Below are positions 2,651 through 28,760 of a stretch of DNA of 64,000 nt, one piece after another; within the stretch, counting starts at the first letter, position 1, and each line of letters starts with the position of its first letter. Position numbers and translations under genes: made by a program. Origin of the DNA: Xiphias gladius (lineage: Eukaryota > Chordata > Actinopteri > Istiophoriformes > Xiphiidae); contig NC_053404.1 in NCBI RefSeq assembly GCF_016859285.1, forward strand, positions 15,949,105-16,013,104. Direction: 5' to 3'. The notes under the pieces were generated by a model, which was given only the letters and a program-made list of their open reading frames with translations, was not told where the DNA came from and made no database searches.

Positions 2651-3216
2651 TGTATGGTATAAAAGCCTTTAACCATTGAGTGACAAAACTGCAAAAAAAA
2701 AAAAAAGGGGGGGTTAAATCCTGAGCCACTTCATTCAAGAATGAATTGGTTCAGTGGCAACAGAATCAGGTATTCATCACTTTTCAAGTAAAAGTGATTA
2801 TCTGCGTTCTTTGTCAGTCAGGGAACATTTTAAAGCTCACTGCAAGGTTAAATTGTTCCTGTTGTTGGGAGTCTGTGACTCCGAAACCAAATGACACTTC
2901 AGTAATAGAAGTTTTAATATTTAAAACAAAAAACAAAAAACAAAAAACGGAAAGCTTAAAGAGTAACTTAACGCTATAGCGGGACCAATATAGGATTTTT
3001 AAGGCCGATACGTATATTGATATTTGAGAGTTTTAAAATCCAGTAATGATATAATATTAATTTTCTGTACACAACCTCTAGTTTGTTTCTTTATCAGTAG
3101 CGACCAATAAATGTACTGGGCAAGACATTTTACTGTTGAAAAATAAACATGCCTTTACTCTCTGATGGACAAACTATAGACATATATCTTTGGCATTTCT
3201 GTACTTCAGTTTCTTG

Positions 3217-3218
<2 letters not shown>

Positions 3219-3280
<62 letters not shown>
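3219..3280. repeat. (AT)31 microsatellite
   Basis: An uninterrupted run of alternating A and T covers these positions, followed by a short imperfect continuation (gtcatatatatgtg). It is likely to vary in length between individuals. Confidence 0.95.
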
Positions 3281-3283
<3 letters not shown>

Positions 3284-6200
3284 ATATATATGTGAGCTGA
3301 CATATACACCAAAATGATGTATCTGCAGTTAGGTAATAAGTGACGATATATCTGCCCAGCCGACTTTAACACTTTTTGCTGGCATTTAGTGGTTTAATAT
3401 AGCACCTTACTTCAGTGATGCACTGATGTACTCCAGGACACCATGACATCACTGATGTGGTTGTGGTTGACAGCTCTCAACCACACCGTCCAAGGTGAGG
3501 AAGGCTTGAAAATTTCAACCAGGGAGGGCAGTAAAACACTGCCTTTCAGCCTGGTGTTGACAGCAAGAAGGCAGATCGTTGGCTACAGCAATGATGACAG
3601 TCGGGTGGCTTCTACAATGCCTATACTGGGTCTGATTGGGAGTGAGCAGCTGGGGAAACTATAGGGATGTCTGTTAGGCAGGTAAAGAATGACAGGCTCT
3701 GAAAAGACCCTGTTAGTTTGAAGAGCAACAAGATTAACCACATAACCTTCAAGCAGAGGAGAGAAGAGAAGCTGAAGGTTCGGCGGTAGTCTTGACATCA
3801 TCATCATCATCATGATCTTTGCGATCGCCATCAAAACAAGTCTACATTATCAGCTGCTGACTGTTATAGCACAAGAGAGCGCTGAATATTCTCACACATT
3901 GACATTATAGTACATCCAGTAAAATGAGATCATTCAAGCTATAAGCTGCAGCTGAAGTGAACTCCTGAGACAAACTTTTTACAAAGTTTTGTTATTCATT
4001 ATTGCCCTCTAGTGGTTTCATGTCCTTTTGTATTTTAAAGGGGACACTCCACTGATTTTCCACATCACAGTGAGTTTATTAGTCACAGTTATTGCTACTC
4101 AGCTTATGAAAACAGTTGTGTACTGAACTCTGTGGCCCCCGGAGGCAACTCTCCAAAGTCTGAAAAATTAACCCAATTGATGTCACAGTGATGTAATCAG
4201 GGTTATTTCGGCTTGGGCGTGGTGACTAAAAATTTTATTAGAATTAAAAGCTGTGTGGAGTTTGAAAGAGGGCTTTTAGTGTGGGCTTTTTGTGTGGGCT
4301 TTTAGGTTCGGATGGAGAAGAAAAAATGCTAATGAGTTGATTTGTTGTAAATGTAGGATGCAGTGTTTTTGGAACTTGACTGTACAGGAACCAAAAGTCA
4401 GGATAACTAACACTGTGTCGCTTTACTTGTGACGATTTAAAAAAAAAAAAAATCCGTCCCTTTTACATCTACCAACTTTATGGAAGTGCCCTACTAAATT
4501 GATGAGGTACCGCTTTAAAATAGAGACCAAATTATTGACTGAAGAATGGCAAGCTGAGCAGCAGTTTGAGTAGCGATCATTTAAAAAAACTCACGTGAAA
4601 TTAAGATTGCTGCTTCCCGAAAATTCTTTGACATAGGAAGAATTCTGTGTATTTCAGGTCACAAGTCCTGTGACTGTACACAATTAAAAGTTCTCACTGC
4701 CAGTAACTATAGGTTGATCCCATGTGGTTTTGTGTAACAACAATAACAGGTGCAAAGGATTATTTTCAGTCAAATCCCTTAAAATCAAAGGCAAACCACT
4801 TCTCTATTTCCTGTTTTGTCCTTTGCTTTCCCCTTCATTTCTGTGTGTTCTGCTGCCTTGATGACCCTGCAGCTGAACTCTTCTTCTGGCAGGTCTCTGC
4901 AGAGCAAGTGAGGATACTCAGTGTTCACACCACCAGTGTTCACGGATAATAAAAAAAAAAATTAAAATAAAAACTTCCTTCCTCCATCCTGGCAGCAGTT
5001 GCCTTGAAAAGATGCACACCTGCCAGAAAATGCCTCTGTGGTGCAAAAGAGCAGATTTACACACAAACCACTGGGCCCAAAGCTTTCCTGAAAATGCCAA
5101 AAGGGGTTGGCATTTCCAAAATAACAGCAAAGTTGCTAGAAGAAGAGAAAATGCTATGGACTTCCTGCTATTGTTTTAACATTACTCGGGAAGTCACAGT
5201 AAATGGTGTCAGCTTTTTCTGACATGATTGTCAAATAATCTCTTGACACTGTCAATATTACTGACTTTGCACTTTGGTAGTAAGCTTAGAATGGTTAGAT
5301 TAGCTTAGGATAATCGCCATGAAAATTCTGCCATGAAACTAATCCCCAGCACAAACAAGGCAAGTGCTTGACAGCTGTTTACTCAAATTTTACCGAAATA
5401 TGTTGATGCGGAGAGCACCAGAATTTAATCACAACAAGCTGATTAAATAGATGAAAAATAATCTTCTCTTAAGTCCACTCATTCTTTCAATATCACAGAT
5501 CCAATTTAATGTACAAAAAGTTGATTTACTTTGTTTCATTAGTTTTATTGTACTGATGTATTCATCATATTCTCTTCTTCCACCACCTCCTACTGCAGGC
5601 CCCACTCTGGCCGGTAAAGAGCGCGTGCGCCGTGTGGGCTGGTTCGCTCCAGAGTTTTGTCTGTCTTTTACAGCAAGCATTAGTCATCCAGGTTGGTGGA
5701 TGAAGAGAACAAATGGCTCAGGTGGGTGGAAGTGCCCTCATATTGGATCACAGAGCGGCCTCAAAAACAAAGAACCATACCTCGGAGATGAGAAGCTGAA
5801 AGAGAGCAATGTTTGTAAAAACAGGGCTTCAAAAAAAGTATTTTAGAGCAGTTTAAGTTTAACAAAAAGCTATTAGTCCTTTTTTGCACCTAATATTAGA
5901 GTTGCTGATTAAGCCAATTGGGCTTTGTTGTATTTATAAGCAGTTCCAGTTAAGGTAATGCTCTATTATGAGTTTGTAGTTTCCTAATAATTTCTCTAAT
6001 AATATCCTGAGTTTCCTGGAAAACACTACTGTATGTAATTTAGTTCTTATTATTAGGAAAATATTATAATATTATATATATTAATATTAATATCTGTGAA
6101 ATAAATGGGTAGGTTGACTTTGAAAGACATGACCATTTACCAGGCAGAAAGGAACTAAATAAAAATGGATTAAATATTAACTGTATCCAACAGTCCAATT

Positions 6201-6965
6201 TTGTCAAAGGGCAATATCAAATCATCGGAGTGTCCCTTTAAGTGAAATTAATTAATTCAAAGTGTACTAGCTGAATACTGCCTCTATTTACCTTGTAATC
6301 TGTACTAAACTTCACTGTCTTTTAAGGAAACTTCTTGGAAAATATTAAGAAAATTATGCAGAAATTACAGGTCTGTAGAATAAACTGTTACCCAAATCAA
6401 TATGTATACTAAAAAAAATTGTACAAAATCAATAGATTCCCACATGAACTAGCTTACTATCTATATAAAGACAAAAAATACATATCAACCAAAAGAAGTA
6501 AATTTATAATACTTTGTATATTGCTGGTAAGAAATGACTTCAAAATCAAATAATCGGATTGTCTGAGGCAACATGAATATTTCACTGAATAACAGATATG
6601 CACAATTGCATTTGATACTGCCAAATAAGGTCATTAAAGTTTAAACTAGACATCAAATGTCCAGATACAGACACCCATGACACCCACACATACAAAAATA
6701 ATTCATTATGTATAAAAAGGAAAGGATTCATACAGCTATACATGACATATTTACTGTATCATCCAGTGCTGAGACTAAAACATCATGAAATACTCACTCG
6801 TTGACCAGTAATGACAATAACACTTGCACAAATAGAGTTGAGAGTTGTGCACAGCAGCAGATAATAATCAGCAAGTCAAAGAAAATTTCAAAGAACGCTA
6901 AAAATCAAGTCAACACTCATTTCACTTCAAACCTGTTTGAATAGATACTGTATGTCATGTACACT

Positions 6966-6968
<3 letters not shown>

Positions 6969-7037
<69 letters not shown>
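6969..7037. repeat. (GT)34 microsatellite in the slc39a12 3' untranslated region
   Basis: An uninterrupted GT repeat on the plus strand, read as CA on the slc39a12 sense strand. It starts five bases after the slc39a12 stop codon (7,043-7,045, minus), so the transcript should carry a long CA repeat at the start of its 3' untranslated region. Confidence 0.93.
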
Positions 7038-7039
<2 letters not shown>

Positions 7040-7042
7040 AAT

Positions 7043-10000
7043 TTAGAATTTGAGTTCATGTTCAAAGAGTGCGAGGAGCAAAAGACAGGCCCAACCCATC
7101 AATAGACCAAGGTTCTGTAGGAGAAACATGAGACATGGTCGGTCGGTCTTCACTCGACACATCTCAGGAAGCTGAAAAAAGAGAGAAAAATAAAAGTAAA
7201 AACAAAACCCTCAACATTTTTGACAGAAAGATGGGAAAAGGCTTATTATTCTGTATTTTTCTTATTGTCAGGGTGTCCCATAGAAAGGCCAAAACCTACG
7301 GTGTCTTAGTCTGTCTCTCAATACTTTTTTAACTTTCCTAATCTGTCTCTCGCACTCAGCCCAAAAGCCCATTCATTCCTTCTGAAAATGTAAATCTTAA
7401 GCAAGACTAAGAGTCCACAGACAGTGCTTTGAGCTGAATGCTAATGTCAGCATGCTAACATGCTCACAGTGGCAATGCCAAGATGTGAATGTTTAGCAGG
7501 TACAGGCATGACGTTTACTATGTTCACCATCTAATTTACTGTGTTTACATGCTAGTTAGTTTGTTAACATTTGTTAATTAGCACTAAACCCAAAGTACTT
7601 GCAAGGCTGATGGAAATGCCATTAGTTTTGCAGGTGTTGGTTAGTTTGAAGGTGAAGATCAGATCAAGATCAAAGTCAGAGGACGAATGGTGATTACAGT
7701 TTGTCCTGAGGGGAAGAGGAATGTCTGAACCAAATTTCATGGCAATCCATCTGACAGTTGTTGGGATGTTTCACTCAAAACCCCAAATGTCAACATCATG
7801 TTGACATTAGATGAAAAGCGAGGGGGAACATCAAAGTCAGTGAGCTTCATCCTGTGGGGACAGTGAATGTTTCATAGAAGTCCATCAAATAGTTGCTGAG
7901 ATATTTTAATCTCACCGACAGACTGACATTGCCATCCCTATGGCCATGCAACTAGCATGGTTAACAGTGGAACATGAATATATAGTGTAATTTCCTACAA
8001 CAGCTGGGTATTGTAGTTTTTAGTGAATTTGACTCAGGAGTAAAAACTGTATTTGTTGGGGACTATTTTCAGTGGTGGATTAATGCACATTTTGTGGGCT
8101 AGTGAGAATTTAGAGCAAAGGGATGGCGTATTAGGGACCGACCTAAAATAAAGTAAAATGCCTGTGTTTATCGGTATAAAGGAATATGTCACCCAGTATA
8201 ACTGTATTTTCTCGCTGATGTGGTTTTAATAATTATGGACAGCATTAGTGTTCTATTGTACGGAGAATGGGACCTGTTGACAATAAGAAAGATATAGAAC
8301 ATTACCAGCCTTTAATAAGGCTATCTTACCATTTCTACAAGTGACAAGTAGAGGAAAATCCCAGCAGTGACAGCAAAGATCCACTGCTGCACCTCTGTCT
8401 CTGAAGAAACAAAGAGTCCGATGTAGAGGCCCATAAAGGCTGTCAGAGCGCTGAGAAAGTTCATTAGCACAGCAGTCTTCACTGAGAGTCCAGAGCTGAG
8501 CAACACTGCAAAGTCCCCTTTGAGACAAAAACCAGACAAGAGGAGTCTGTCAGTCAGTGTTTCCTGGCCTCAGCCAAAAAACAGCAAACATGCTCCCAGA
8601 GCAAGCATAGTGACCCCTCACCCATCTCGTGCGGGATCTCGTGGCACAGGATAGCCACCGTGGTCGCCATGCCAGTCTCGGCTGAAAAGGAGAAGGCCGC
8701 CCCAACAACGAGGCCATCGGCGAAGTTATGAAGGCTGTCTCCCACGATTATCATCACAGCCAGCAGAGGAACCCCTTGTCCTGGGAATACAAAGCCAGTC
8801 TTTGTCATTAAAGCTCATCCTCAGACCATGACAATTGCTCTGTTATGCCAGGCGACTAATTAAAGTACATGACAATCATCTGTGTGTGTGATTGTGCAGT
8901 TCATACTAAAGAAGCTTACTCTGATGTGAAGGACTCCTTGTGTCTGCATGTTCAAGAGATACTTCTGTACACTCCAAGTCATCCACTGGTCCCTGCAGGA
9001 TACAGATCATTATTTACAGTACAGACTTTTGAACCTTCTTAACCTTTTATTCCAATTTGATAGATAAGATTGGTTCTTGTAGTTAAATGAACCTGGACGT
9101 GGACGAGAAAAATACACCAAAACAGGATATTTTTATGTCAGCAAAAAATGGTTGGAAAATAGGTCTATGTATGTAGTTTACAAAAACAGGCTTTCTATGT
9201 GAGTGTCCTGTCTCTGTGTGGGAAATGTTCTAGTTTTGAGGTATGTATTCAACTGTACGTACATGATTCAACACAAATGTGAAGTGCTTTCTGATGATTC
9301 AGTATTTTAGTCTCCCACATCCCACATGCCATGTTCCTTTACTCCCTCCTACACCACTCTTCATTTCCTGTTATATAAGAGCAGTGTTGGAAAATTTATT
9401 TTAAGTGAATTTCAGTTGATTTTTGAACTGTAAACATGAATTCAGTAGATTCACATCATCATTTATCTACAGTATGTCCCTCACTGTTTTTTTAATTTTT
9501 TAATTTTTATTTTTTTTATGAGGAGGTTGGGATCTGAACTGGGCCAGCGTGCTGAACTATCCTCAAGGTTGTGTGAAGCTGTGCTCTAATTTGCTGGTTG
9601 CTCTCCTGTAAACAGTGCCCTCTAGCACAACAATACTGGTGGAGGAGTGGTGTGGGAGTGAAGCATCATCGGGGTGAATGAATGTGATGACATAACGATT
9701 GCAAGAGCTGCTGAAAAAAAGTCCCTGTATTTGTGTACATGAGGAAAATAAATATGGTGTGACGATGAACTTTAGTATATTTATTGTCACAATAGCCAAT
9801 AAACTACCAGCTACGACAAGCCAATTGCACAGGACATGCCTCCCACCAAGCTGAGTCAGTTGTAACCCCAGGACACCAAACCACACGAATGTGTGAAAAC
9901 TAGTCAGCAGGCAAGCGGAGGAGTCATAACAGACCAGCTAAATAAATAAATAAATTGCTGAAATGTCCAGCTTCTGCCAGACCAAGTGGTAGTGGTATGA

Positions 10001-11238
10001 ATGGAAGAGACCAAGCCTAATCATCTACACTTCCAGGACTAATTCCAGGATAAGTCTTAGGATAAATCATATCTACTTGTATATAATTAGTGGTATCGAA
10101 TGGTGTTTGAAATCAATTTGAATTAACACATTTGCAACATGACGTGGTGTCGATGAAGGGGTACTCATATGATAAGGCTGTGGGAGTACATCAGACTAAA
10201 AAGCTCTAGAATCGCTGAAGTAGAAGCACAACATCTTATACGTTTATTTTTTGTTTCTTTCTCTCTCTTATAGTCAATTACTTTTTAATATTTGGCACTG
10301 TTTTAACATTTTGCCATTTAACTTGCAAGTACTGCCATGTCATGGTCCCTTTGGTCTGCTCTATCACTACGTGATATTCATTTGTGTGATAGGGATGATG
10401 AGTTCTTAAAAAAACAGTTTAGTGTGGGTAGCGATCAAACTCACCAGCTGTATGGTGGAGATGGACTTGCCCCTCTGTGACTGACCATTGCAGCTGAGCT
10501 CTAAGGGAAGGTCACTGGAGTGACCCTGCAGACAAAAGAAAGTCATGAGACCACTGTTGCTCAAATGCACAGTCAGGACAAACGCCAAAAGTTCAAAATG
10601 TGGTTAGGTAAAGGAAATTTAGCCACAACTTCAGCCCCTTTCCCTTGATACACTATGGTTTGAGCATTTAGCTCTCTGTGTCATTTTCGGGTTATTAAAT
10701 TGATAACAGCTACAAAAAAAAAAAACTCTTACATGGCCTTGAGAAGGAACAAAAAAGGAGAACATTCTTTCAATAAGGAAAAAGCCATAAATCCCAGCAA
10801 TCATGCCCAGAATCTTCCACAGATACTCCTTTCCTTCAGTATAGTGCTCATCATCATGACTGTGAGTGTTATCATGGAGGCCCAGAATCTCCAAAGGACA
10901 CAAAAAGGAGAGAATTAGACATTTATTCCACACTCAAGATCCGTACAGTATGTGGTCGGTTGTAGTAGACAGTGAGGTTTTTTATACCTGTGGTATGAGG
11001 TGCAGGAGAGCATCTCCTGAGAGGGTTCCCACTGCCAGGCCCACAAACAGCTGCAGGATGAGTGTGTAGGTTTCCTGGCAGGAGTTGAAGAAGATCAGGC
11101 AGATACCGAACATGGAGCCTACCGTGATGAGCAGGACAGCGGCTGTGCTGTAGCCATACTCTGCAGGTAAGTGAAGGGAGGAGTTTATTTTTGAGTTTAT
11201 TTGTGACAAATCCTATAATTACACTTAACTGAATATTA

Positions 11239-11279
<41 letters not shown>

Positions 11280-14200
11280 GATATTTGATTTGTGCTAACA
11301 AATGAATGGCTATTCATAGACGAAAGTACATCATAACCGGTTTCCTGCATGTTTTTTTTTGTGCATTAGTATGTGACTCTCTTTCCCTAAATGATGGTAA
11401 AACCTGGTCAATTTGCCCTTTTCTTCTTATTTTAAGTAGTTCAATTGATGACCTAAAATAAAATATTTAATAGAAAGAGTCCTTCTCAATCCAGTAAAAA
11501 GTCACAAATTAAAAAACTGGTTTATTTGGTGGAAATTACTCTATATTGTATTTATGTATGATTGTGGTTTGTAGGAAGAAACAATGAGATAAAATGTCTT
11601 ACTCTCGAGAGCAGTGGGCAGAGATCTTCTTGTTTTTTGATCAGCAGACTCACAGGCGTTGCCTAGCAACTGCTGAATAATGGCCGGGCAAATTTGTCTG
11701 AAGTGCTCCCTGGAGATTGGCAAATGAGGATCCAGAGCAAAAATATCCACCAACTGATTGGCTGAAAAACATACCTGATGAGATTCAAAGGAAAAAGCAA
11801 ATCTGGGGATGAGTAGGAGGCTCAAATCGAGCTTTAACTGCATAGCAAAAACTAATCAGATATTTGTCTCAGCCTCACCTGTGCCCAATCTCTGTTTATT
11901 CCACCAGTTTCATGGTTACAGCCATCCACCTGATGCCCCGCTCCTCTCTGTGAACTGCCCATGACGCTCCGCCTCTTCCTGTCATGAGAGAGAGTGGCTC
12001 CCTCCCGACCCACTCCCAACTGAAGAAGCAACTCCTCTAAGTCTAAGAAGAGAAGTGGCATCGATGGACTATATAGTGAGGTCAGAGTTATCTGTCTGGA
12101 GGGTTAGTGGCTCTTTCAAGCATCTCATTTCTCCTATTCAGTGGCTGAGCAGAGGAAATACCTTTAAATTACCTTTAAAGAACGGACTTGCAGAAGATAC
12201 AGAAATGTCAAAGGAATAGTTTGGCATTATGGGAAATACGCTTGTTCTCTTTTTTTGCCAAGAGATAGATGAAACTCTCATGTTTGAATGTTAAATATGA
12301 AGCTACAGCCAGCACTTAACTAGCGTAACTTAGCATAAAATATAGAAATGGGGAACAGCTAGCCTGGTTCTCTCCTAATGTAACAAAATCTATCTACCGG
12401 CACTCCAGGATAGCCCAGCACTTAACCCTCTGTCAAATCAAAGACACAAAATATAATGTGTTAATAAGTGAGCTTGAGAGGTGCTAGAAGGTGGGTTTTG
12501 TTAGAACCAGGCTAGCTGTTTCCTCCTGTCCCCAGTCTTCTTGCTAACCTAAGCTAATCGCCTGCTGGCTGTAGCTGTCACCTGTCAATATTCTCATCTG
12601 TCTCTACTCCAGAAAGCAAATTAGCGTTTCTCTCTTAAATTTTCAAACTATTAATTTACATTATACTTTCAAAGAACATAAGATTCTGTTGCAAGGTCTT
12701 TATGTAGCTGTGGCCAGCGAGGAATCTCCATAATAGTAGCGGACCACGTGATCTGTTCATTAAATAGCAAGCAAATGTCAGTGGTGATGTGAGTAAGAAG
12801 CTTAATAACCTGATTAATTTACCTATAATCTGCAGGTTACTTGTACGATTCAGGGATTGAAAGATGTAGTCGGTAAAGAAGGCAGGTGAGGGGAGGTTCC
12901 TCCGTCCGAAACAGTGGCCCTTCAGGATATGGCTGATGATGGCTGCAGCCACTTTGGGCACAGAAGACTCACCAGCACCTGGATTTTCTTCTATGTCAAC
13001 ATCTTCAAGTAGATGAGTGGCATCAATACACTGTGGGATCAAAGATGAAATGATCATATCTGGGCGTGCCCCTGGTGATAAAGGATCGATTTCTTAAATT
13101 TAAATCCCTTACTTGCAGATCAGATGAGGTATCTTGGTTGGACGGGTTGTAGTGCTGGTTGATGAGCTGCAGAATACTCTCTGTCTCGCTAAGTGAGAGG
13201 AACTGGTTGTCCTCGGCTGGGTGTAGATTGGTGAGGGCCAAAACGTAGAACTGATAGTTCCCAGATGAGGAGGAGGAAAGGGAGGAAGGGGAGGCAGTGT
13301 TTGACACACACAGATCTTGCAGGTTAATTGTGTAGTACAGCAGAACAGTCGCGATTCGCTGGTAGTCCTCCTCAGTGAAATAAGCCTTTTCATCATCCTC
13401 GAGCACAGAGATGGCTACATCTGGTGTCAGGCACTGTAATGAGAACAGGATCACGTTAGAAGAATTTTAGGGAGATTTTATGGACAGAAAGTTGCAGAAT
13501 AAAGGGTCTGTGAACCTTAGATTTACATGTGATGGAAAAGGCGAAAAGCAGGTCAGCTTGATAAAAGGCCTATTTTCTCCTTGCACAGAGTACTCTGCTT
13601 ATTAGAAAATGGCTAGCTTTGTGCTGTTGTTTGTCGTCTGGTGAGTTGACTACAAGCCCAATTAGACCCACACACAAAATATAGAGGGTTATGAGAGTGG
13701 GTGAAGCACTTTTCCTTATTAGAGAGAGCGGACTATTCAGCAAACAATGCTGAAAGTAGAAAGTTGCTCTCTTAATTTATAAATCTTACTTTCAAGGCTT
13801 GAGAGACATAAAATCCCATTGTCAGCGCATCTGTTCAAACATGTGAAGTACCTCTAACTCTACTCTATGGAGTTTATTATGTCAAACTGAGGGATGTCTA
13901 AAACCACTCAGCATGAATGCCCCATAGAGGTCAAGGACTTAAGCCTCCACATTCACTCACATTCCACCCATAACAAGCACATTTCTTGGAATAAGCAGTC
14001 AGGAACGCGGTGAATACATAATAAGTACTTAGCATACTGGATGTAAAAGTTGAGTGTCATATAGTGACATTTGTATGATAACATAAAGACAGGTGTAGAC
14101 CTTACCTTGTCACAGATCTCCTGAGAGGTCCCAATTCGCTCTGCACAGCGCACTGCCTGAAGAAGCGTGGTGATCAGGAGACCAGTTTTGTTCCTCTGGA

Positions 14201-14354
14201 GCTGTGGTTCGTTGTCCATCCCTGGGGGGAGATCCAAGGCCTTGAGAGCCTCCTGCAGGTACCCCCTCTCCTGACTTTTCACCTCCACTACCCTCCCCAG
14301 CAGACAAAGAGGAAGCAGCAACAGCAAAAGGGGAGCACTGCTCCTAAAGTGCAT
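7043..14354 (-). CDS. slc39a12: Zinc transporter ZIP12 (SLC39A12), complete, 12 coding exons
   Basis: ZIP12 moves zinc into the cytosol and in other vertebrates is mainly a nervous-system transporter. Coding exons (high to low): 14354-14106, 13433-13113, 13030-12823, 12042-11879, 11774-11603, 11160-10988, 10888-10733, 10525-10445, 8992-8920, 8780-8622, 8517-8330, 7171-7043. All joins keep phase and use GT-AG sites, giving 690 residues; human ZIP12 has 691. Seen: signal peptide [20 protein letters not shown] (start chosen here; an in-frame Met 93 bases upstream would bury it), a long extracellular N-domain, [11 protein letters not shown], a His-rich loop ([11 protein letters not shown]), HNFADG in transmembrane segment 4 and [10 protein letters not shown] in segment 5. 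The last two are the metal-binding motifs of the LIV-1 ZIP subfamily; CHEIPHE has C in place of H at its first position, as in human ZIP12. The last exon encodes the final helix and ends ELKF. No break seen. Confidence 0.95.
7172..8329. other. Last intron of slc39a12
   Basis: No exon is seen. It contains a copy of a dispersed repeat (about 7,427-7,990) and AT-rich sequence. Donor ATG|GTAAG is at 8,330 and acceptor ttttttcag at 7,172. Confidence 0.8.
7427..7990 (+). repeat. Dispersed repeat family B, near full-length copy
   Basis: It opens with gctaatgtcagcatgctaac and continues to ggcaatccatctgacagttg and catgcaactagcatgg. Parts of the same family recur at 21,056-21,440 (first part) and 22,610-22,870 (last part, shared ccaaatttcatggcaatc-like block). 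It has no open frame. Such TTAGCATGCTAAC-rich repeats are very common in percomorph fish. The class is not certain. Confidence 0.7.
8993..10444. other. Intron 8 of slc39a12
   Basis: A 1.45-kb intron. About 9,530-9,900 has a less AT-rich composition with a 107-codon chance open frame on the minus strand that resembles nothing known. No exon or clear mobile element is seen. Confidence 0.6.
11240..11278. repeat. (TTA)n microsatellite
   Basis: About 12 TTA units lie in slc39a12 intron 5, just upstream (on the sense strand) of the exon at 11,160. Confidence 0.9.
12211..12655. mobile_element. Palindromic MITE family A, copy 1 (slc39a12 intron 3)
   Basis: It starts ggaatagtttggcattatgg, passes ttgccaagagatagatgaaa and ends in caatattctcatctgtctct, whose reverse complement resembles the start. 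The interior has the shared motifs tgaagctacagccagca, a TTAGC block and cagctagcctggttctc. Other copies are at 24,110-24,782, 48,066-48,396, 49,222-49,540 and 51,535-51,912. It has no coding capacity, so it is probably a non-autonomous DNA transposon. Confidence 0.7.
13434..14105. other. Intron 1 of slc39a12
   Basis: A 672-base intron between the signal-peptide exon and the second extracellular exon. Nothing else is recognised in it. Confidence 0.75.
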
Positions 14355-16323
14355 GTTCTTACCGAGGCAGTCCGACTCCCTCGAGCTCCCAGGACTGACT
14401 AAGGGCTTGAGACAACAAGGAGTGGATGGAAAGAAAAATATAGACAAGCAAATTGGGAGAGAAATTTGAATGAAGGTGAATGAGGAGATAGAACAGAGAG
14501 CTTCTAAAAAAACAAGAGCAGTGGATATGTTCTGGCTGAGGGAGGCATTAATAATGGGCCTGCCAGATCTGGTGGAGGACAGGACGGCTCGGCACCCTTC
14601 AGCTGAACCAAACCTTACAGTGCCGAATGGTCAGCCAAAGCCTGGGCCCCTCAGTCCACAACAAAAAGATTAGTGCAGGCAAGTGAGAGAGAGAGCACAG
14701 GGGCAGGGAGAAGGGGGAGACTGTACAGAAAATAATTAGTACTGAGGAAAACCAGGGACTAGGGAAAAGTTATTATTAAAGCAATGCAATGGCTCGGGCA
14801 GTCAGAGATCCACATCTACAACAAAGTAGGTTTCCTGATCCAGTGGCACAATCACCTCTTCAGTTTGTATATTAATTTAATTTATTTTCTTGAATTGTTT
14901 CAAAACTGTCAGCTCAAACTAGTTTCCCTATTTAACAGCATCAATTGTTCAAGAACAGGCGAGTAGTTGGTGTTACTGAGTGCCTGCAGTGTGTTGACAA
15001 CAAGCCCCAGAGCCCCCCCTACATAAAGCACCAATGGCGTTCAAATCTAATTCTCTCATTCTGTATGATCTCTGAGTCACCCAAGATCAAACATACAGAA
15101 CAAAACATGCCAAGCTTTCTCGCAACGCTTTCCAGCATCCTCCCACACTGTGCACCCCGCAGGTCAACTCAACTGATCAATAAAAGGACAAAACTGTTGC
15201 TGAAAAATACTAAATGCTACAGTAATACCTGAGCTTGAGAAGCTGAAAACGCTTACTGGGTGAACCAGGCTTACCATTCTCCCCTCTGCTCCTCGCAGCT
15301 GCCACAACTAAGTTTGTTTGCCTCCTCCGGTAAGATCCAGTTGTTTGGGGAGAATTCTTGGGCATTGGTGCTGTTGGTAAAACCCTCTTAGAAGAAGTAA
15401 GAATTGAGTAAGCTCCTGAGGATTAGCTGCGACAGCCTTAGAGGGTTGTGGTTGCCATGGAGAACACTGCCTTATTTTCAGCAGTGAGTTGGGGGGGGGG
15501 GGGCCAGCTGCTGGTAGGGGTGATTGAATGGCAGAGCGATATTTTTAAATCTTGAAATTCAGATCTGATTATCTTTCATCTATGTACAACAAAAATCCAG
15601 AAAAGCAAAAATCCAGAAATGTTGCTGTTATTCACACCAAAGCCTACATAACTGAATAAGCATTTAGGTAGAGGACTTGGAGGAGACACAAGACCACAGG
15701 AAAATACGAACAAGGAAACATCATTCTTATATACAGTAGTTTTCTATCAAGTGTGGATGAGGCTGTAAGGGAGTTGCCCAGTAATGAGAGAAGTGGTTTT
15801 GATCACACTGATGGATATCGTGTTACGTGGCAAGGTTAGATTAGTCAAACAAACAACAATTTCTAAAAGTTTCCACAGAATGATTGGCCTCATCTCCTCC
15901 TAGCCTGACAGGCACCACTTACAGCTTCAAAAAAACTCATCAACGTCTCCTGTAATCACTTCCAAAAAAGGAGATCCATAAATGAAGAAGAGGGCTGATA
16001 GATTTTGTTCGGTTATTTATAGTGTTTGATAGAACAGACGTTATTCAGCGAGAGGGTTCAAGTTTGACTCTGAAGAGGTTTCGTAAGATCCCGGAGTATT
16101 TAACCTGATCAGGAACTCGTGTCTGCTGAGCATTTTGTGTCTGTCATCAAACCATTTTTTCTGTTCTTATAAAAAACCGCTTTAGGCACTTTTATTTATG
16201 TCACAATCCATCTCACCACAGTTCTCCAGAATTAGTAGTTAAACATTGTTGCTCTGTTGTTGGTCTTTCTGAAGAAAAACTAGCAAAAAGAGGACAATTC
16301 AGATTTGTTTATGTCATTTTTTT
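14355..16323. other. Intergenic region between slc39a12 5' end and mrc1 3' end
   Basis: It should hold the slc39a12 promoter and 5' untranslated sequence. It includes a G run near 15,490-15,503 and the orphan mrc1-like exon described separately. No other exon is seen. Confidence 0.6.
15640..15960 (-). pseudogene. Orphan duplicate of mrc1 exon 1 and upstream flank
   Basis: On the minus strand, ATG at 15,721 opens MFPCSYFPVVLCLLQVL, compared with [17 protein letters not shown] at the true mrc1 start (28,490). The DNA around the two exons matches at roughly three of four positions by eye, including ggacttggaggagacac against gaacttggaggagacag. The likeness continues upstream: tcacactgatggatatc (about 15,798) against tcacactgatgaatatc (28,635), then blocks around ggttagattagtcaaaca and tccacagaat. 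At the place of the mrc1 exon 1 donor (GTACGT) this copy has TTATGT, and a TAG stop follows within two codons. No further mrc1-like exon lies before slc39a12. Best read as a fossil of a tandem duplication. A weak shifted donor (GTTATG) or a role as an untranslated exon or promoter cannot be excluded. Confidence 0.75.
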
Positions 16324-16329
16324 TTTATT
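16324..16329 (-). terminator. Candidate mrc1 polyadenylation signal
   Basis: AATAAA on the minus strand, 480 bases after the mrc1 stop codon. It is the first clear hexamer on that strand past the stop. Confidence 0.5.
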
Positions 16330-16808
16330 CAGCATCTATTTACAATGTCGTAAGACAGAAATAGGCTGATGAACAGCCCATGGAGAATAATAAAGAGCAA
16401 CCCAGTTGAGAAGAACCTGGCTAATGGCAGTAAAAAAAAAAAAAAAAATCTTCTCCTTTCTTGATTTTTTTTTTTTTTACATGTGTCTGGTCTACAAATG
16501 TTTTTGATTATGTTGATTGGTAAAGGTAAAAAAAATAAATCTTTACACATTTCACAAATCACATAATGATGGTAATATTTTATAGATTGTTCACTTATAT
16601 TATCTTGTCTGTAATTCACTTGGTGCACTGCCAGTGCTTGCATCAATTATTGTATAATAATTATGATCATCATCATCTTTGACTCGGTCCTCTGTAAAAA
16701 GGGAAAACTCATTTTTGGCTGGTTGAGATTCAGTTCCCAGTAAAGTGACCCAAAATAAAGTATCACACCAAGATGAAAATCTCTGATCATATCATTTTCA
16801 TGCTTTTT

Positions 16809-17992
16809 CTATGCTTTTTCATTTTGCTCTATGTTTGCCACCAGACCCTTGGTGTCTACTGCGGCTCGGATCGGACTGTTGAAATATAACTTGTTGTCAA
16901 AGGTGCATTCTCCCAAGACAGGGGTGGGTATCCGTTTACGGAAGAGGAGGAAGGAGCCAAGTCCAACTATGGCAATAACAACAAGCACTATAGCCACAGT
17001 GATGCCAGCAGACCCATGTGAGGCTTCTTTAACGACGTGGGCTAAGGAGGCAAAACATATAGAAGTATTAAGAGTGACATAATTAAAGTTTGAAACATCA
17101 TATGCAATAGATATCTCAGATAAAATAACTTACCAACAGGTGGAGGCTTTTCTGTAGGTGTAATAACTGAAAAAAAGATGAATTGTTCATTGTAAGTTAC
17201 TGATGGAGCAATTAAAAAGTACATAAAAGCTGATTAAATTTACCTTTGGGTGTTTTGCAGATGTAAGACCTATATCTGCTGCAGCTATTTGTACTCCACT
17301 GTCCACTGTCAGAATTTATGTCCACACATGAATCTGACTTTGGCATCCCTGTTTTCCAGTTGGTATAGTCCACAACGCTGTTATCGATCCACATCCACTC
17401 ACCTGAAACAAAGGAAACTTGTTATCTTACCAACCAAAGCAGCTCACTCAGACACAGTAGGCATACACTGTTTCCCAATTAATTACTACCCTCTGACTGT
17501 ATACAGTATACAATGACTAATGTTTTAATATATTGTTTTTGAAGCTTTTAGACAAGAAATTAACATATTTACATGGTGTTTTATGCTAACAAGAATGATG
17601 CAATACACAAATTTAGCTTCAATAAGCCATGCTCACCTTCATGGGTCTTGTACAGGCCAATCCAGAAGGTTTTGGCACCGTCCTGCAGAAGCTCCAGGTT
17701 CTTTTGTATGAACAGACTCTCTTGAGGGTCCTGAATACTCACCAGAGATGCACCTGACGAACACAGCCATAGTAGCATACTGTTCGATTTTACACGCATA
17801 CAGATAACCATTTATCGGTAGAAATTCTTCATAACATACCCATTTTCAGGCATTCAACTGAGGCATGTGCCCAGTTGTCCACTACTGAGCTGAGGAAGGA
17901 ATAACAATGGCTTCTGAAAGGTATCCAGGTTTTTCGCTTCTTCGGTTCTGGACAGTTGCCAGGAAGCTGCGGGGGTTCAGTGGGGGCTATGT
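16809..17992 (-). CDS. mrc1: mrc1 exons 26-30: C-type lectin domain 8, stalk, membrane helix, tail
   Basis: Exons: 17992-17840, 17753-17637, 17402-17244, 17166-17134, 17041-16809. Landmarks are [45 protein letters not shown] and [10 protein letters not shown]. The 33-nt exon encodes the Pro-rich stalk [11 protein letters not shown]. The last exon encodes [20 protein letters not shown] (membrane helix), the basic stop-transfer RKR, FDNKLYF and the stop at 16,809-16,811. Confidence 0.95.
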
Positions 17993-20900
17993 CTGAAAAA
18001 AATACAGGAGACTACATCCTAGTCTCAGGGACTGGTGGAAAACCATTCTTAGAATTGGTTATGTACAGTATATACAAGAGAACTAACAGAGGGATTGTCT
18101 GACCTGGTGACCTCTTGCAAAGGGAATAGTACGTATTAGTACATGGTGCAGTCTTCCACGTTCTGTCCAAATCCATATACACACAGCCATAGTTGTTTTT
18201 AGGCTCATCTGTGCCCCATTTGGTGTAGGACAGAAGCCAGTTATCGACCCACTTGAACCGACCGTCAGTCTGTGAAAAGATATCACCACTTGCATTATGA
18301 GATAGAAGGTCCTTGTCTTAGTTTGAAAGCCTATTTGAACTAATGGTGTAGAATAACTGGTAGGTCCTTTACCACATTGCTGTTGAGGCCAAGCCACACA
18401 GGCTCATTGTGCTTGGAAATCTGCAAGGTGATGTATGCCTGGGTTACGGGGTTCAGGATACTGGCCAATTCTGCATCATCTGCTTGGCACTGCCTCCTCG
18501 CCTCATCCCATCTCATCCTCTGGGCCACCAGTTTGTAGGAATCATTGCCAAGCTTGTAGAAAGCCTTTGGTAACACAGTGGTGGGTGGGACTACAATCTG
18601 AGAATCTTTGTTAATAGGAAACACCAATTGTTAGTCACAATCACAAAAAACAAAAACAAAAAACAAAAAAAAAACCAAACAAACAAATAAATTCAGCTGA
18701 AATACCTTTACCTCATGGCCCGGTAGACTTGCCTTACTAATATTTCACTCACCAATGTTTCTTTTACAGATGAATCCTTTTTTTGAGAGACAGTCTTCCA
18801 CTTTCCAGAATCCTGTTAGTTTGGAGATGCTGCCCACCATAATCACACAATCAAACATCTGTCAGGCAGAAAAGGGTAGTTTAGTTCAGCCTGGTTGCGC
18901 CATTTTCATGGGTTTTCCTTTCAAATTCCTTTTTTTTCAATGATGGTATGCACATACATTTGAAGTGAGAAGTTCAGATGACTGATGTAACTAACATAAA
19001 AGTATTAGAATACGGAAAATTAACACATATGCACATTTCATACATGCGTTTAAGCATAAAATTAAATCACTGCACAATATTAACAGTATTGTATATGTAG
19101 TCAGATGATTAATGGGGAAGAAAAAAAAATATAAGTCCTGCGACAAAAATGATTATTAATTTTTTGGACTTATGCTCAGTCAGTACTATCATTTTAGATG
19201 TCTGCGGTTAAGATAAACAAGGGTCTTTGGTAGAGTTCTTTTTCTTTTTTTTCTTGTGTCATTGACGATAATTTACACTTCGTTGCAACTAGTCTACAAG
19301 CAAATGGCCACAAGATTATTCAATTAAAGTGTAGGAGGGATAGAGAGTTGTACAGAAAATGACTTGGATATAGAAGTTAAAATAACCTCATCCATTAATG
19401 AATAACGTCCATCAGGCACTGTTGTTGGGTGCCCTTTGGCCCAGTTGGTGTATGAAATGCCTTTGCCGTCTGTCCACACAAAGTGCATCTCCCAGTTGAC
19501 ATCATTCATACCGATCCAAAAATCTTCATTGTATCTCAGCATCTGTGTTGTTAAGAAAGCTAAAAAGGAAGACACAATTACTCTTAAACTCCCCAAAATT
19601 GTGGTTTACTTACATAAGACTTAATCACCACATTGTGAAGTGTAACCCTTACAGACAACCACAAATGAAATGCTGCTCATATCACTCACCTTGCTCTTTC
19701 TCGTTGACGATAGAAACCAGATTTCCTCCCTGGTTTATGCAGTACGTCCTAGCGTCCTGCCAGTTCTTATTGTCATTTCCCACAGCAATTTTGTAGCACT
19801 GTATAAACAAGATGGCTCTGAGGTATAAGTTAGAATAACAAGCAAATGGACAGTAGATAACCAGTGTCCTTTCAAGCTTAGAGAAAATATGGGAATACGT
19901 TTTACCAGAACAGATTTATGCACATTGGAGAGTTTATGTCACATCCTGAAAGCAGGACCTTTGTCTCGGAAAAAGATATGCACACTATGCGTAGTGTCAG
20001 CACTGTATTGAAGTAATCTGTGTTGTATGCAGTTATTCGTAATTACCTTTCCTTGGAAAGATAGCCACTCTGGTGCGCATCCTCCCTTAGGAATAGGGGT
20101 GGGGGCCATTGTTGTATTGATAAAACTACTGCTTCTTTTGCAAATAGAGGGAAGCTCCATACCACAGTTAATATCATTCCAGTACCCTATATGTGCAAAG
20201 TTTACACAGAAAAAAATTTATAAAATGATTAGAAGAGGAAATTATTTATAAGCAAATCAACACAGTATGGATTGTCTCTGCTTTAGACTCACCCATGCTC
20301 TTGTATATAGTCACACAGTTTTCATCATTGTTAGCGAAGTTGGGCTCATTTTGTTCCCATGCAGTGTACGTTACAGGGGTGCCATCTAGCCAGCTAAGAT
20401 TGCAAAAATTAAAATAAATAAGACACCACTAATTTAAAACGCTCATCACAATATCTGCATTTCTCTATTGTATCAAATGTCAGACTAGATTTGATGTGTG
20501 GCAAATGACAAATAGCCAGTATTCCTAGTGTTGTGCATTAATATTGTTGTGATTTACCTAAATGTCTTATCCAAATTCACTACCATGCCAATGTAGTACT
20601 GTCCTTCTGTGCCTTTCGATATCTGTTGGAACATAATGGTAAGAGAGACATTACATTGAGATTAAAGCAAAAAACAGTTGTTACGCACTGGGTTTCGGTG
20701 CTTTTGCCATCAGATTTTTGAGAACATACAGCATGCTGTCATATTGAATTTCAATGCTAAATATAAAATATTACAAATTTCTTGCCTGTTTCCAAAGGAA
20801 CTTCCTCTCACTTTCCCCTGTGATGACCACAAGTTCACCAAAGTTTTTTTTACAGTAGGCTCTGGCAGCTTCCATAGCTAGGTTGTCAGTGTTGATGAAA

Positions 20901-23900
20901 TATTGTGTGTCATTGTATATGACCCAGCCATCTTCTGTGGTGTTGTATACTGTAAAAGGAACAAAATAGTTAAGATGTACCACAGATACAGTATTTGGGA
21001 TTGATGGAAAGAAGGATAAATGAGTCTACAGCCATAGTAGCAGCTCAGTGGGGCTGTACTTGTGAAAGGAGGTACTTTGAGCTAAATGCTAACGTCAGCA
21101 TGCTAATATGCCTACAGTCACAATTCTAAAATGCTAATGTTTGGCAGGTATAATGTTTACCATGTTCATCATCTTAGTTTAGTGTGTTAGCATGCTAAGA
21201 GTTGCTAATTAGCACTAACTCAAAAAAACGTGAACGGAATGCCGTTGATTTAGCCGTTGGTAAACCGCTGGTTTAGCAATAATCAATCAATCACCAAACT
21301 GGACAAATTGAAATTTTGATGAAATCTCAGATGTTGGTGCTTTATGAAAAGTTAAAGGATCACCAAAGCCTTTACAATTCATCCATGAATGTCTGTGCGA
21401 AAGTTCACAGCAATAAAAAGAGACAAGTGGAAGGGAGAGAGTGTAACTCATAAATCAAGAAAATGAAAAGAAAGAGAGATAGAGGCTGCTTTGGGGACAG
21501 ACTGCTGCTGAAACTTACCTGGTGCAATTACGGCAGGCTCAGGTTTGGGAGTCACACCTGAAAATACAAGAACCATGAAGGAGGAATCTAAATAGCAGGG
21601 TAAAGCTCTAAAGGAAATGTCACATAACTAGTTTAGATAAATGGCTCTATGTAAACTGGAGCTCCGTGATGAGACCAGTCGGTGTTACCTTTGCGTATCT
21701 GGCAAATCCAGTCATTGTAGGCCTCACAGTGCCGATCGTTCCAGTGCCGTCCGTAGTAAAACTGGACTTCTGCACAGTGTTCGTTGTCATTGTAGTTGTT
21801 TGGTTCCCCAAAGCCCCAGTTCTCAAAGCCATTCTAGATCACAGTTATTGGAAATACACATTATTAGGCCACGACTGATAATTACAGTGAGTAAAGCTTT
21901 TAGTGTTAACGATGAAGGACTACATACAGCAGAGCCATCAGTCCAGACAAAACCTTTATTGGTACCCATGGAGCTGAAGCCAATCCAAGCTGCATCAGAG
22001 GCATGAAACCTTTATGACAACAGAAAACACCGATACTGATTACATGAATGTATTATTAGAATAATATAATCTCTGACATATACGAGCTGGTAAATTAACA
22101 TACGGAGCATTGCTTAGGTCCTGCATACTGTGGATGCTCATCAGGTCCCCACCAATGGCCTTGCAAAAGTTCTGCGCTTCATGCCATGTCTTCTTAAGGT
22201 CCTTTTTTTTTTTGTAAAGCTTTTTAATGAGTGAAAAAGAAAAACATCTTAAGTTTTATGTACTTGAAAGAGCACAAATTTCACATATTAGTTCAGTTTG
22301 TCCCCCTACCTTGTAGCAGACGTTCCTTTTACCAGCAGGGGTCCATCCAAGTGCACAGCTCAGGGCTGGGGTGGTGGGTGGAACTGTTGTCATCTGTACA
22401 CCCTCCGCTGGTTTCTTGCAGATATACTTCTCGTTGTTGCTGCAGCTGACAACATCCCATAATCCAGCAAAAATCCCAGTTGTCATGGCAACACATCCTT
22501 GTTTTCTGTCTTTTATTAAACACACAGAAGGAGATGGGAAAAATATAGATAAACTGACCTAAAAAATGTAAAGATACAAAAGAAATACAGATTTATGACA
22601 ATTAATTATGAGGGAGACATGAAAGTTTGTACTAAATTTCATGGCAATCATTCCAATAGTTATCGAGACATTTCACTCAGAACCACCAACGTGAACCTCG
22701 TGGTGTCACTAGAGCAAACGTTAGGGAATCTCCTAAGTCATAAGGATATATCATCTGGGAACCATGAATGTCTGTACAAAATTTCTTGGAAATCCATAGT
22801 TGTTTCAGTCTGGACCAAAACAGACCAACATAGCCTTCCAAAGAGCTATAATAGCTAGCATGGAACCTATAAACTGTTAAATCTACTACACATAGTGCTT
22901 CACAACTCTGCCAATCCAATCAACAAATAATTTGTACATGTACAGAACAGTACATATAAGTAGCTGCAGTAGATAATGTAAGATCCCTAGGAAGCAGAGA
23001 TTTAATGTACAACTAATGAGAAGTGTGCTGTACCTGGCATTCCCACATTGAAATTAGTGAACGTGACCGTTCTTCTGGTGGTCCACTGGAAAGTGTTTCT
23101 GTCTACTGTGTTGGAAAAACCAGTCCAGAAGTACTTCTCTGGTCTTAAACCCATCAAACTGACCAGGAAGGCATTCTCATATCTGCATGAAAACATATAA
23201 AGGCAGAAAGGTGAGCAAAACAATGAATGAATCTTTACTTTTTGATACCACAAGGTGTAATGGCTCTATTGAAAACAGACTATTCTCGCCTTTATAAACT
23301 CAACACAGCATTCAACATTTGTTTTAAGTTATCATATTCATTGTAATCTTTTGGAAACAGGTGTTTCACATAATTTTTATTACTGAACTATGAAGAAAAA
23401 ATTGCACATACTACATGAATATGAAAATATACCTGTCAGCCACATCCACCAGGTTACCGCCAGCCTCGGAGCATGCCCGCTTTGCCCCATCGAACGTTTT
23501 TCTCTCAGATCCAATATTGTAACAGTGTGAACCAAACCTGACTGAGCCCTTAAAATGATTTTTTTTAAAAAAAACAGTGAGTCTAAATCTGATCTGAAGG
23601 CTTTATTATAATATCAAACCTCAATTCAAAGGAAATGACGTCACTTACTAGCTTGCATCCAGGGTTGGCTTCCTCTTGGGTGCCTTCAGCTGGATTAGTG
23701 GAGGCTTTCTTCTTACAGATATACCCATATGTCTTTTCACACATGTGATCTGCCCAACTCCCATCCTGTATGAGCAATATATAAATGCTAAAACAGTACC
23801 ACTCATTTGATAATACGACAATATTATAATTTAGCCCATTTGCATTTGGTGCCTGATGGGTGTTACCTTTCCTCTGATGAGGACGCAGTCTTCCTGGAGG

Positions 23901-26900
23901 TTGGTGGCATGAGATGGCTCACCAGTTTGCCACTGGGTGAAGGTAACGTGGGAGTGATCGGACCATTCAAACAGCATCTGGTTCCTCTGATCATTCAAGC
24001 CAATCCAGAGCACATCTGTCGGTACTAAGGGTTTTAAACACACATTTACTATGGTCATGGAGTGTAGTTTCACAGATTTGGTATCTTCTGTATTTAGTTT
24101 TGTTGTTCTTTAGATGAGTAGTTTGATGTTTTAAGAAATACACCTACTTGCTTTCATGCTGAGAGTTAGATAAGAGGATTGATGCCTTTCCCGTTTCTGT
24201 ACGGTAAATATGAAGCTGCAGCCAGCACACGATTAGCTTAGCTTAGGGCAAAGACTGGAAACGGGGGGAAACATCTAGCCTGGCTCTGTCCATCAGTTAC
24301 AAAAACTGCCTACCAACAGCTCTGAAGTTCATTAATTAACTTGTTATATTTTATTTGTTTATATGTACAGGAACTAGAATGTAAAAGCGACAAGTTGGGG
24401 TGCTTCACTATTTCTTGGCATGGAGACTACGCGTTTTCCAGGCAACCAGCAGAGATTTCAGGAAGTTACTGCGTCTGACCAATATAGCAGTTTGGCACAT
24501 AACCCCCCCATAAAGCCACAAATTGCCATTTTTATATTTTGTTTTTGTATGGATTAAACAAATAAGATATAATGTTTTAACTGGAGAACCATATAGGTGT
24601 TTTTAAGTTGGATTTTATACTTTTACAGAGCAGACTAGCTGTTCCTCCCTTCTTCCAGTCTTTATGGTAAACTAAGCTAACCTCTCCTAGCTGTAGCTTC
24701 ATATTCAACGAACAGGTATGAGAGTGGTTTCAAACTTCTCATCTAACTCTAAACGTCTAATTATTCCTTAAAAAAATTCGGATCAGTGTGTTTACTATTC
24801 ACCAATTTAATGTCACAAAAAATAAAACTGTCATTAAGAGTTTCCATACTCATAACATTTAGCATAAATTGCTTTTGTTAAAAAAAAAAAGAATCAATGG
24901 AGAAAAAAACTGACTTATTTTACACTTACAATACCCAGACTGAGATATGATGAAGCTCTGCTCTTCTATATTGTGTATGCTGGCCAAATCTCCTCCATCT
25001 TTGTGGCATGCAGCCAAAGCATCCCTCCACATCTTTTTATTCCTCTCCAGGTACCAACAGTTACCGGCATAAGGAACCCAGTGACTGGGGCAGAAACTGG
25101 GCTGGTCTTTGCCTGTGGATAGAAACCAAAAAAGCTGAGAATATATTCAGATGTAGATACGTACCATGAAGACTTACTTGTAATAATAAACCTTATTCTG
25201 GTCATTTTGAATTATGATATTATTTTACTTGGTGGTGCGGGCAGGCTGGTAGAGTTTCCTTTGCGACAAATGTAACCAAGTTTCTTGGTGCAAGTGCTGC
25301 TCTCCCATTTTGAGGCTTTTGCAGCATTTAGGGTTGCACATGTAAGCCCAGGCTCCGATGACGGATGACCTGTAGGAAACATAGATCCATGTATTATTGT
25401 TTTTAATTTAAAACCATAATTGTATTTAACTGTAAATATGTATGGTTATTTTTGAAAGCCCTCTGTTTTTATCACATCAAATGAAAACATGACATACTGT
25501 ACAATCATGTCCTATCACAGTGTATGTTTTTACTTACCTGGGGCCCAGTTTAAATACCTAAATGGATTTCCATTGCTCCACTGCCATCCACTCTCATAAT
25601 CCAAGCTGTTCAATCCAATCCACAGCGATGTTCCGAAAGAATTTGTCAACCCTGTGTCAACACATGTATTATGAAGCTATTAATATTCAATAATATGAAA
25701 ATGCGTGGTGTGGGTAGCTGATACGAGGTTAACTTTGTACCTGAAATGTATGACTGCTCATGTAGCTCTACAATGCTGAGGAGGTCAGCTCCCTGCTGCT
25801 GGCAGCTCTTTCTGGCCTGATGCCAGGTCAACACTGACTGTGCGTTCCTCTGATACTGAACCCCTGTGACTGGATCAGTGTCCCAACCTGAGGATGCTGG
25901 ATTATGGTAAAGACACAAAATACCACAAATTATAAAACTGAGGGAAATTATTCACCACATGAAGTAAAAGTAATGTAATACCTGTTGATCTGAATGGATT
26001 CTAAGGACAATAAGTGTCTCAAAACTGGAAACTGAGCAATATCTTGTAGATTCTTATCTAGGACTGTGTTCTGTTTCCTTAAAAACTATAGTAAAAGTGC
26101 ACTTGTTTTCTTTTCCTGTTCTCTTCCTGCCCCCGTTTTAGAGCAGCGTAAAGGGAAAGACAGGCCAGTGAGAAAAGGAAAACAAGGACAGTGCTGTGCT
26201 GACAACTCATGAGAGGAAGTGGTAGTGTTATTCTGCTGGGGTAGAGGAGGGGTCAGAAACAAGACCTGTCAGCACTGACCTCTTTGGTGATAGCACTTAC
26301 AGAAATGACAGAAAAACAAAATAATTGTGTGTGGTTTGATTAAAAAAAGGCATTGTGATGTGTTTGGATGGTCCGCTGACTTCTTTGTAAAATCATTAGT
26401 CAAAGATAATATAGCATAGACATAACAAACTCTTTAAGAATTTTTTTTCAAATGTTAAGTTTATTGTAGCCTTCTGTGAGGTTGATAAGATTTGTTATTC
26501 ACAGTTACCTTGGTTGGGACAAAAGCCCCATTTCTTTGCCTTATTGTAATCTTTCTCTGTGGCACACCACAGCTGTCCATCTGGTCGACCGTCCTTTGTG
26601 CATTCAGCGTACCACTTCTCCGCAAACTTAAAAGGGAACTGACAAGGGCCTCCAAATGCATTGCCCCCTAATGTGAAAATCTCTGAGGAGACAGATCAGG
26701 AAAAGTATATGGACATGTAATCATTACACCAATAAATTATTGTTAATCATGGGCATTCATTTTCTGTTCTTACAGCCTCCACTCTTCTGCGAGGGCTTTT
26801 CACAAGATTTTGGAACTTGGTTGCAGGGATTTGCTCCCATTCAGCCACAAGAGCACTGGTGAAGTAATTTATTGATGTTGGGTGAGAAGGCCTGGCTCAC

Positions 26901-28490: not shown

Positions 28491-28760
28491 TATCCTTGAT
28501 GTTTAGTTTGCACTCAGTGGTGGAAGAAGTGGTGCGAGAGTTTGCCAGTCATGAAGAGAAGAGGTCTGGTGTGTGGTAAGGTGTGTGACATACAGCAACA
28601 ATGACACAGAGACATGGCCCTTTCCCCCCTTCATCACACTGATGAATATCCTGTCACATGGGTGGTTAAGGTTGGTCAAACACAGCAATTTCCATGGGCA
28701 TCCACAGAATTTTTAGCAGAGGAGAGGAATGCAGGAAGATGGGAGCAAGCAATCGCATCT
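28491..28760 (-). promoter_or_regulatory. mrc1 upstream region with a block kept in the orphan duplicate
   Basis: It lies directly upstream of the mrc1 start codon. The sub-block 28,630-28,715 (tcacactgatgaatatcctg, then ggttggtcaaacacagcaat and tccacagaat) is also found upstream of the orphan exon near 15,795-15,880, at similar spacing. The sharing comes from common origin. Whether it also reflects promoter function is an inference. No TATA box stands out. Confidence 0.4.

Follow-up and report, generated by a model that had tools for sequence, protein, structure and literature searches.

How did a second copy of the first exon of the mannose receptor gene mrc1 come to lie between mrc1 and slc39a12 in Xiphias gladius, and does it serve any purpose there? 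The initial annotation of this DNA offered two answers, namely that the locus once had tandem mannose receptor genes or that the mrc1 promoter was copied next to slc39a12, where it might still act, and both are considered here by computational analysis of the window, i.e. the whole stretch of 64,000 nucleotides. The reading preferred, to which a probability of about 0.6 may be attached, is that the feature represents an unprocessed stump, the 5' end of an earlier tandem duplicate of mrc1. The stump is probably non-functional, and we infer that it is inert at present.

Gene content of the locus

Both genes lie on the minus strand and in transcription order mrc1 (ATG at 28490, last coding ORF at 16812-17129) precedes slc39a12 (ATG at 14354). 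The features of the two genes are as follows.

16812-28490, minus strand: mrc1 gene body, with CysR (27843-28288), FN2 (26498-26695), C-type lectin pieces and the TM and cytoplasmic ORF (16812-17129)
28421-28490, minus strand: mrc1 coding exon 1 (the parent), with the ATG at 28490, a donor GT at 28420 and an in-frame join, made by eye, to the exon 2 acceptor at 28288
28566-28710, minus strand: parent upstream block (28630-28710) together with the part that the copy lacks (28566-28629), from blastn and alignment
14106-14354, minus strand: slc39a12 first coding exon with signal peptide and the ATG at 14354, recognised by eye, the ORF having no Pfam match
14355-14503, minus strand: probable 5' UTR portion of the exon carrying the slc39a12 ATG, with a strong acceptor at 14503

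The description of mrc1 is based on ORFs and domains. Its CysR matched the Pfam family CysR_MRC2_N at E 7e-17 and its FN2 matched fn2 at E 7e-19. Ten mrc1 ORFs, a selection from the 75 minus-strand ORFs of at least 38 aa, were scanned, and Lectin_C was found in eight of these at E values up to 0.05, the Pfam cut-off being reached in five of the ten; for one the sole match was to a viral lectin-like family and fell short of that family's cut-off. The TM tail was identified by eye and Pfam gave no match there. When the CysR ORF was compared with viral and prokaryote contigs there were 2 and 20 pattern matches, respectively, none of which was confirmed, as expected for a fish gene. The identity of slc39a12 follows from the match to ZIP4_domain (E 7e-25) in the next ORF, at 13026-13466, combined with the known mrc1 neighbourhood, since mrc1 is described as a neighbour of slc39a12 (PMC4222902, PMC4229073). 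Two further slc39a12 ORFs had no Pfam match. At 14362 on the minus strand, 8 bases before the slc39a12 ATG, there is a good donor-like sequence, TCG/GTAAGA (score 7.3), the use of which would skip the start codon.

Directly upstream of mrc1, at 32269-35342 on the minus strand, is a gene that resembles human TMEM236, Pfam giving nothing above cut-off. Upstream of this lies a presumably collectin-12-like gene (46717-50649, minus strand), which has a coiled coil, collagen repeats and C-type lectin exons and for which Pfam gave nothing above cut-off in the two ORFs scanned. The window also contains dispersed repeats at 12210-12580, 24121-24750, 48066-48400, 49242-49553 and 51529-51918, which occur in both orientations, are 66-91% identical and include copies inside slc39a12 and mrc1. 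Two direct-repeat pairs, 7424-7554/21072-21197 (78%) and 7707-7824/22609-22726 (72%), keep their order at two places, one close to the 3' end of slc39a12 and the other within mrc1, and are probably also repeats.

A second mrc1 5' end

The existence of a second mrc1 exon 1 with upstream flank on the minus strand was borne out, both by blastn and by comparison with shuffled sequences. The segment 15530-16020 (minus strand) follows mrc1 exon 1 and the sequence on either side of it (28320-28899) in the same order and orientation, with a core identity of 73-75%. A blastn search with 15000-17000 against the window aligned 15670-15797 with 28439-28565 (73.1%, E 4.3e-13) and 15799-15881 with 28630-28710 (74.7% over 83 bp, E 9.4e-9), and with the entire window as query the same two blocks were recovered at E 1.4e-11 and 3.0e-7. 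The local alignment of copy and parent scored 975, compared to a mean of 612.5 (sd 30.5, maximum 729) for 300 dinucleotide-preserving shuffles. The distance of about 12.7 kb that had been given for the two exons agrees with the 12,769 bp separating the ATG at 15721 from that at 28490, and the several hundred bases of flank that had been claimed are matched by homology extending in the 5' direction to 16020/28899. None of 1000 shuffles equalled that upstream homology when the ends were set close, 1 of 1000 did so when the flanks were longer, and in a MAFFT control the count was 0 of 150; farther upstream (16081-16330 versus 28961-29300) 29 of 1000 shuffles were as good, which is not convincing. 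The copy of the mrc1 5' end is confirmed as genuine, and its parts are listed below.

15638-15721, minus strand: copied mrc1 coding exon 1 (leader), with the ATG at 15721, 25 open codons and a stop TAG at 15646-15644
15645-15658, minus strand: probable 14-base insertion at the end of the copied exon, from gapped alignments, which shifts the frame and contributes two bases of the stop
15636-15637, minus strand: GT opposite the real donor (TTG/GTGTGA) in gapped alignments, a weak site (PWM 4.1 versus 5.7 for the real donor)
15722-15797, minus strand: copied mrc1 5' UTR/proximal upstream sequence, 66% identity over 74 columns, within the blastn match
15799-15881, minus strand: copied mrc1 upstream block, 60 of 78 columns identical, nearly touching the proximal block as the intervening ~64 bp of the parent (28566-28629) are not present
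15913-16020, minus strand: distal upstream flank, more decayed, the end of detectable homology
15530-15635, minus strand: what may be intron 1 of the copy in a decayed state, collinear with the parent (100 columns aligned, 55% identity) and reaching roughly to the expected start of exon 2

An origin by retrocopying is ruled out by the common noncoding upstream flank, the intron homology on the other side being suggestive. It is hardly to be credited that the segment is a common repeat (transposable element) or an assembly duplicate instead of a gene copy. The window does carry a repeat family in several copies, and a 17-base direct repeat (88%), at 15556-15572 and 16296-16312, flanks most of the copied segment, such short pairs often being due to chance. 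Against this, the segment has no match in the window at E values up to 1e-4 other than the mrc1 5' end (two copies) and includes an mrc1 coding exon, and the 73% identity rules out a duplicate or artefact of assembly.

The copied leader and its splice donor

The copied leader reads MFPCSYFPVVLCLLQVLYLNAYSVM*, its counterpart in mrc1 being 23 residues long, and over 21 codons 49 of the 63 bases are identical to those of mrc1. In a tblastn search with mrc1 pieces the copied leader was matched twice, in different frames, at E 3e-7 and E 1e-5. It had been noted that a stop follows the leader and that the first donor base has changed from G to T. The first of these observations stands, the second is true only of an ungapped register, in which 9 of 22 bases match at the end of the copied exon (15637-15658) and 3 of 27 beyond it. 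Gapped alignments place a 14-base insertion in the copy and pair TTG/GTGTGA at 15637 with the real donor, TTG/GTACGT, at 28420, so that the GT is kept; for 15617-15646 the gapped register also gives the best diagonal, with 17 of 30 matches, the runner-up having 14. All donor and acceptor scores quoted here were obtained with splice-site PWMs. The coding capacity of the copy is gone, and because of the stop after 25 codons and the failure to find an exon 2 behind it the copied exon cannot yield a mannose receptor. As regards RNA, a conserved structure in the copied exon was sought and 180 of 200 shuffles folded at least as well (z 1.17), and Rfam gave 0 matches for the whole window at gathering scores.

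The flanks and their divergence

On the far side of the exon the gapped register continues through intron 1, collinear with small gaps, to about 15539/28329. Shuffles as good as this alignment numbered 3 of 1000, rising to 29 and 59 of 1000 with wider framings; with three gap costs they numbered 5, 19 and 15 of 1000, and with MAFFT 8 of 150. These figures are suggestive of a weak homology through most of intron 1. On the upstream side the copy lacks approximately 64 bp of the parent (28566-28629), corresponding to 76-139 bp upstream of the mrc1 ATG, and from this distance the absent piece is probably part of the core promoter.

Jukes-Cantor distances between copy and parent were 0.26 for the leader, 0.28 for the upstream block, 0.45 for the 5' UTR, 0.63 for the distal flank and 0.69 for intron 1, the outer values being rough, as shuffled controls align at 47-50% identity and the outer alignments are near noise level. 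By Fisher's test the leader differed from the intron (p 0.004) and the upstream block from the distal flank (p 0.005, for a block chosen for being similar). The ratio of the divergence of leader plus upstream block to that of distal flank plus intron is 0.41 (95% interval 0.26-0.63; probability of at least 0.5, 0.17), a figure that omits the 5' UTR and two middle pieces and includes the upstream block that had been chosen as similar. A dead copy next to a constrained parent would be expected to give a ratio of at least 0.5, and the value of 0.41 does not reject that expectation. It may well be the case that constraint on the parent alone suffices to explain the conservation of the copy, and the point estimate below 0.5 hints weakly at constraint on the copy too, either for a time in the past or up to the present. 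The leader has dN 0.17-0.23 and dS 0.30-0.49, one pair of values being 0.22 and 0.44, with 3 synonymous and 8 amino-acid-changing differences among 21 codons, and these substitutions seem too few for constraint to be claimed or to be clear.

The search for further remnants

A complete tandem duplicate might have left other traces, and it had been stated that no other mrc1-like exon remains before slc39a12. This is in agreement with a tblastn search of 14000-16750 using 152 minus-strand mrc1 ORF pieces of at least 25 aa at E values up to 0.01, which found only the leader: of five rows in all, two were the leader, each in a different frame, two were trivial self-overlaps at the query edge and the last was a match of 9 residues at E 0.009. 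With permissive blastn against mrc1 this interval yielded the leader, the self-overlap and, in addition, three matches at E 0.72. A trace of the mrc1 3' UTR was sought in 14.36-15.66 kb and was not found, 484 of 1000 shuffles being as good. Nor was a second mrc1 found elsewhere in the window when the 152 pieces were run by tblastn against 28521-64000 and 1-14000, again at E values up to 0.01; the matches there were to C-type lectin exons of the collectin-like gene at approximately 46.8-48.0 kb, to the dispersed repeat family, to the repeat pairs at 7.4/21 kb and 7.7/22.6 kb and to a few scattered sites at E 0.003-0.009. The window contains one mrc1 gene and one first-exon stump, and not the two or more complete co-oriented genes between SLC39A12 and STAM by which an MRC1L-type array is defined.

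Origin of the copy

Homology, orientation, collinearity, the detection of no other exon and the loss of the reading frame are all directly observed. The collinear DNA-level homology over upstream flank and exon, possibly with intron 1, indicates that a second mrc1 5' end existed, or began forming, at this locus, and to that extent the suggestion of former tandem mannose receptor genes is upheld; what was duplicated may have been a complete gene or roughly 0.5 kb of its 5' end alone. Under the preferred reading, a tandem duplication at the DNA level would have set a second, co-oriented mrc1 between the first and slc39a12, a non-homologous deletion would then have removed everything from exon 2 to the last exon of the second gene, sparing approximately 0.5 kb that comprises the upstream flank, exon 1 and perhaps the greater part of intron 1, and the remnant would have decayed through the 14-base insertion with its stop, the absence of the ~64 bp of probable core promoter and many other indels. 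The copy is on the same strand, within approximately 0.8 kb behind the mrc1 stop, which is the expected place of a tandem copy. This account would also take the duplicate to have been a complete gene at first and the 64-bp difference to be a loss from the copy, not a gain in the parent.

It is possible, if rather unlikely, that a single event such as template switching copied some 0.5-0.6 kb (upstream flank, exon 1 and perhaps intron 1) to a position 12.8 kb downstream and that there was never a complete second gene. The homology does stop near the intron 1/exon 2 border (at about 15530), neither a later exon (tblastn, 14.0-16.75 kb) nor a 3' UTR trace (14.36-15.66 kb) was found, and one event is needed and not two; the missing relic of mrc1 exons 2-30 or of the 3' UTR behind the stump is explained by a single short duplication as well or better. 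Such an event has to be set against the prevalence of tandem copies among segmental gene duplications (PMC1484586) and the reported occurrence of tandem mrc1 arrays at the same locus in birds, turtle and lizard (PMC4229073), and the core/outer ratio below 0.5 mildly favours a functional phase in the history of the copy.

A possible role for slc39a12

An important consideration is whether the stump, whatever its origin, has come to serve its other neighbour. In human slc39a12 the start codon is reported to be in exon 2 (PMC4222902) and in the present gene the ATG has a strong acceptor before it, at 14503, so that a noncoding slc39a12 exon is to be expected upstream. The copy might supply it, acting as an alternative promoter or as a noncoding first exon (15638 joined to the acceptor at 14503) in which the leader ATG would form a 25-codon upstream ORF, or it might be a macrophage/endothelial enhancer; the prospect of any such role is a poor one. 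In addition to its location upstream of the slc39a12 start, the copy retains a GT at 15637, the acceptor at 14503 (score 10.9) is the top of the 17 acceptors scoring at least 6 in 14330-16330, and the upstream block is better conserved than the distal flank, with the ratio of 0.41 already given. However, the copy lacks the piece at -76 to -139 of the parent, the donor at 15637 scores only 4.1 compared to 8.8 at 15274, which is the best donor in 14330-16330 and nearer to slc39a12, and the conservation of the block is explicable by parental constraint. Furthermore, slc39a12 is described as chiefly a nervous-system gene (PMC4222902), whereas zebrafish mrc1a and mrc1b are reported from macrophages or lymphatic endothelium (PMC12886890). 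Promoter signals in base composition were looked for in 14300-16500, where GC ranged from 0.30 to 0.56 and one 100-bp bin (16000) had 5 CpG, the others having 0-3 and the window mean being 1.36, and they were not convincing.

A promoter or 5' UTR function of the copy is possible, its plausibility being one of position. That slc39a12 has acquired the copied mrc1 5' end as alternative promoter and noncoding first exon, and with it a mannose-receptor-like (macrophage or endothelial) expression in this fish lineage, is very improbable; if it were true that the stump drives slc39a12, this may be a compact case of the capture of a neighbour's promoter.

Comparison with known systems

Read as the 5' remnant of an earlier tandem copy of mrc1, the stump is of an ordinary class and has a precedent in the bird MRC1L arrays. 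Partial unprocessed pseudogenes are described as common, with 1,811 likely non-functional unprocessed copies in human and 1,581 in mouse, and 75% of recent segmental gene duplications are reported to be in tandem (PMC1484586). Like the stump, the unprocessed partial pseudogenes of human and mouse that lie next to their parents are DNA-level copies with noncoding flank, an incomplete coding region, an in-frame stop and a tandem position, but the stump differs from them in keeping the first exon only (PMC1484586). Among the matches listed for titles on fish or teleost mrc1 tandem duplication, on mrc1 with slc39a12, on zebrafish mrc1a/mrc1b and on partial gene duplication, none named the stump. 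In zebrafish there are likewise two mannose receptor genes, mrc1a and mrc1b, but both are expressed (PMC12886890, PMC5457137), and slc39a12 reportedly appears to be absent from that species (PMC4222902). The closest parallel in position is the avian and reptilian MRC1L array, which occupies the same locus beside SLC39A12 and consists of tandem mrc1 copies in one direction, chicken MRC1L-A to -E lying in tandem between SLC39A12 and STAM (PMC4229073). In these tetrapods all of the reading frames are described as intact (PMC4229073), whereas the second copy in the fish is a stump. The stump would bear witness to an earlier duplication at this locus, that of a key macrophage receptor which has been expanded in birds and reptiles, and this short segment makes it possible to test whether fish too had tandem mannose receptors.
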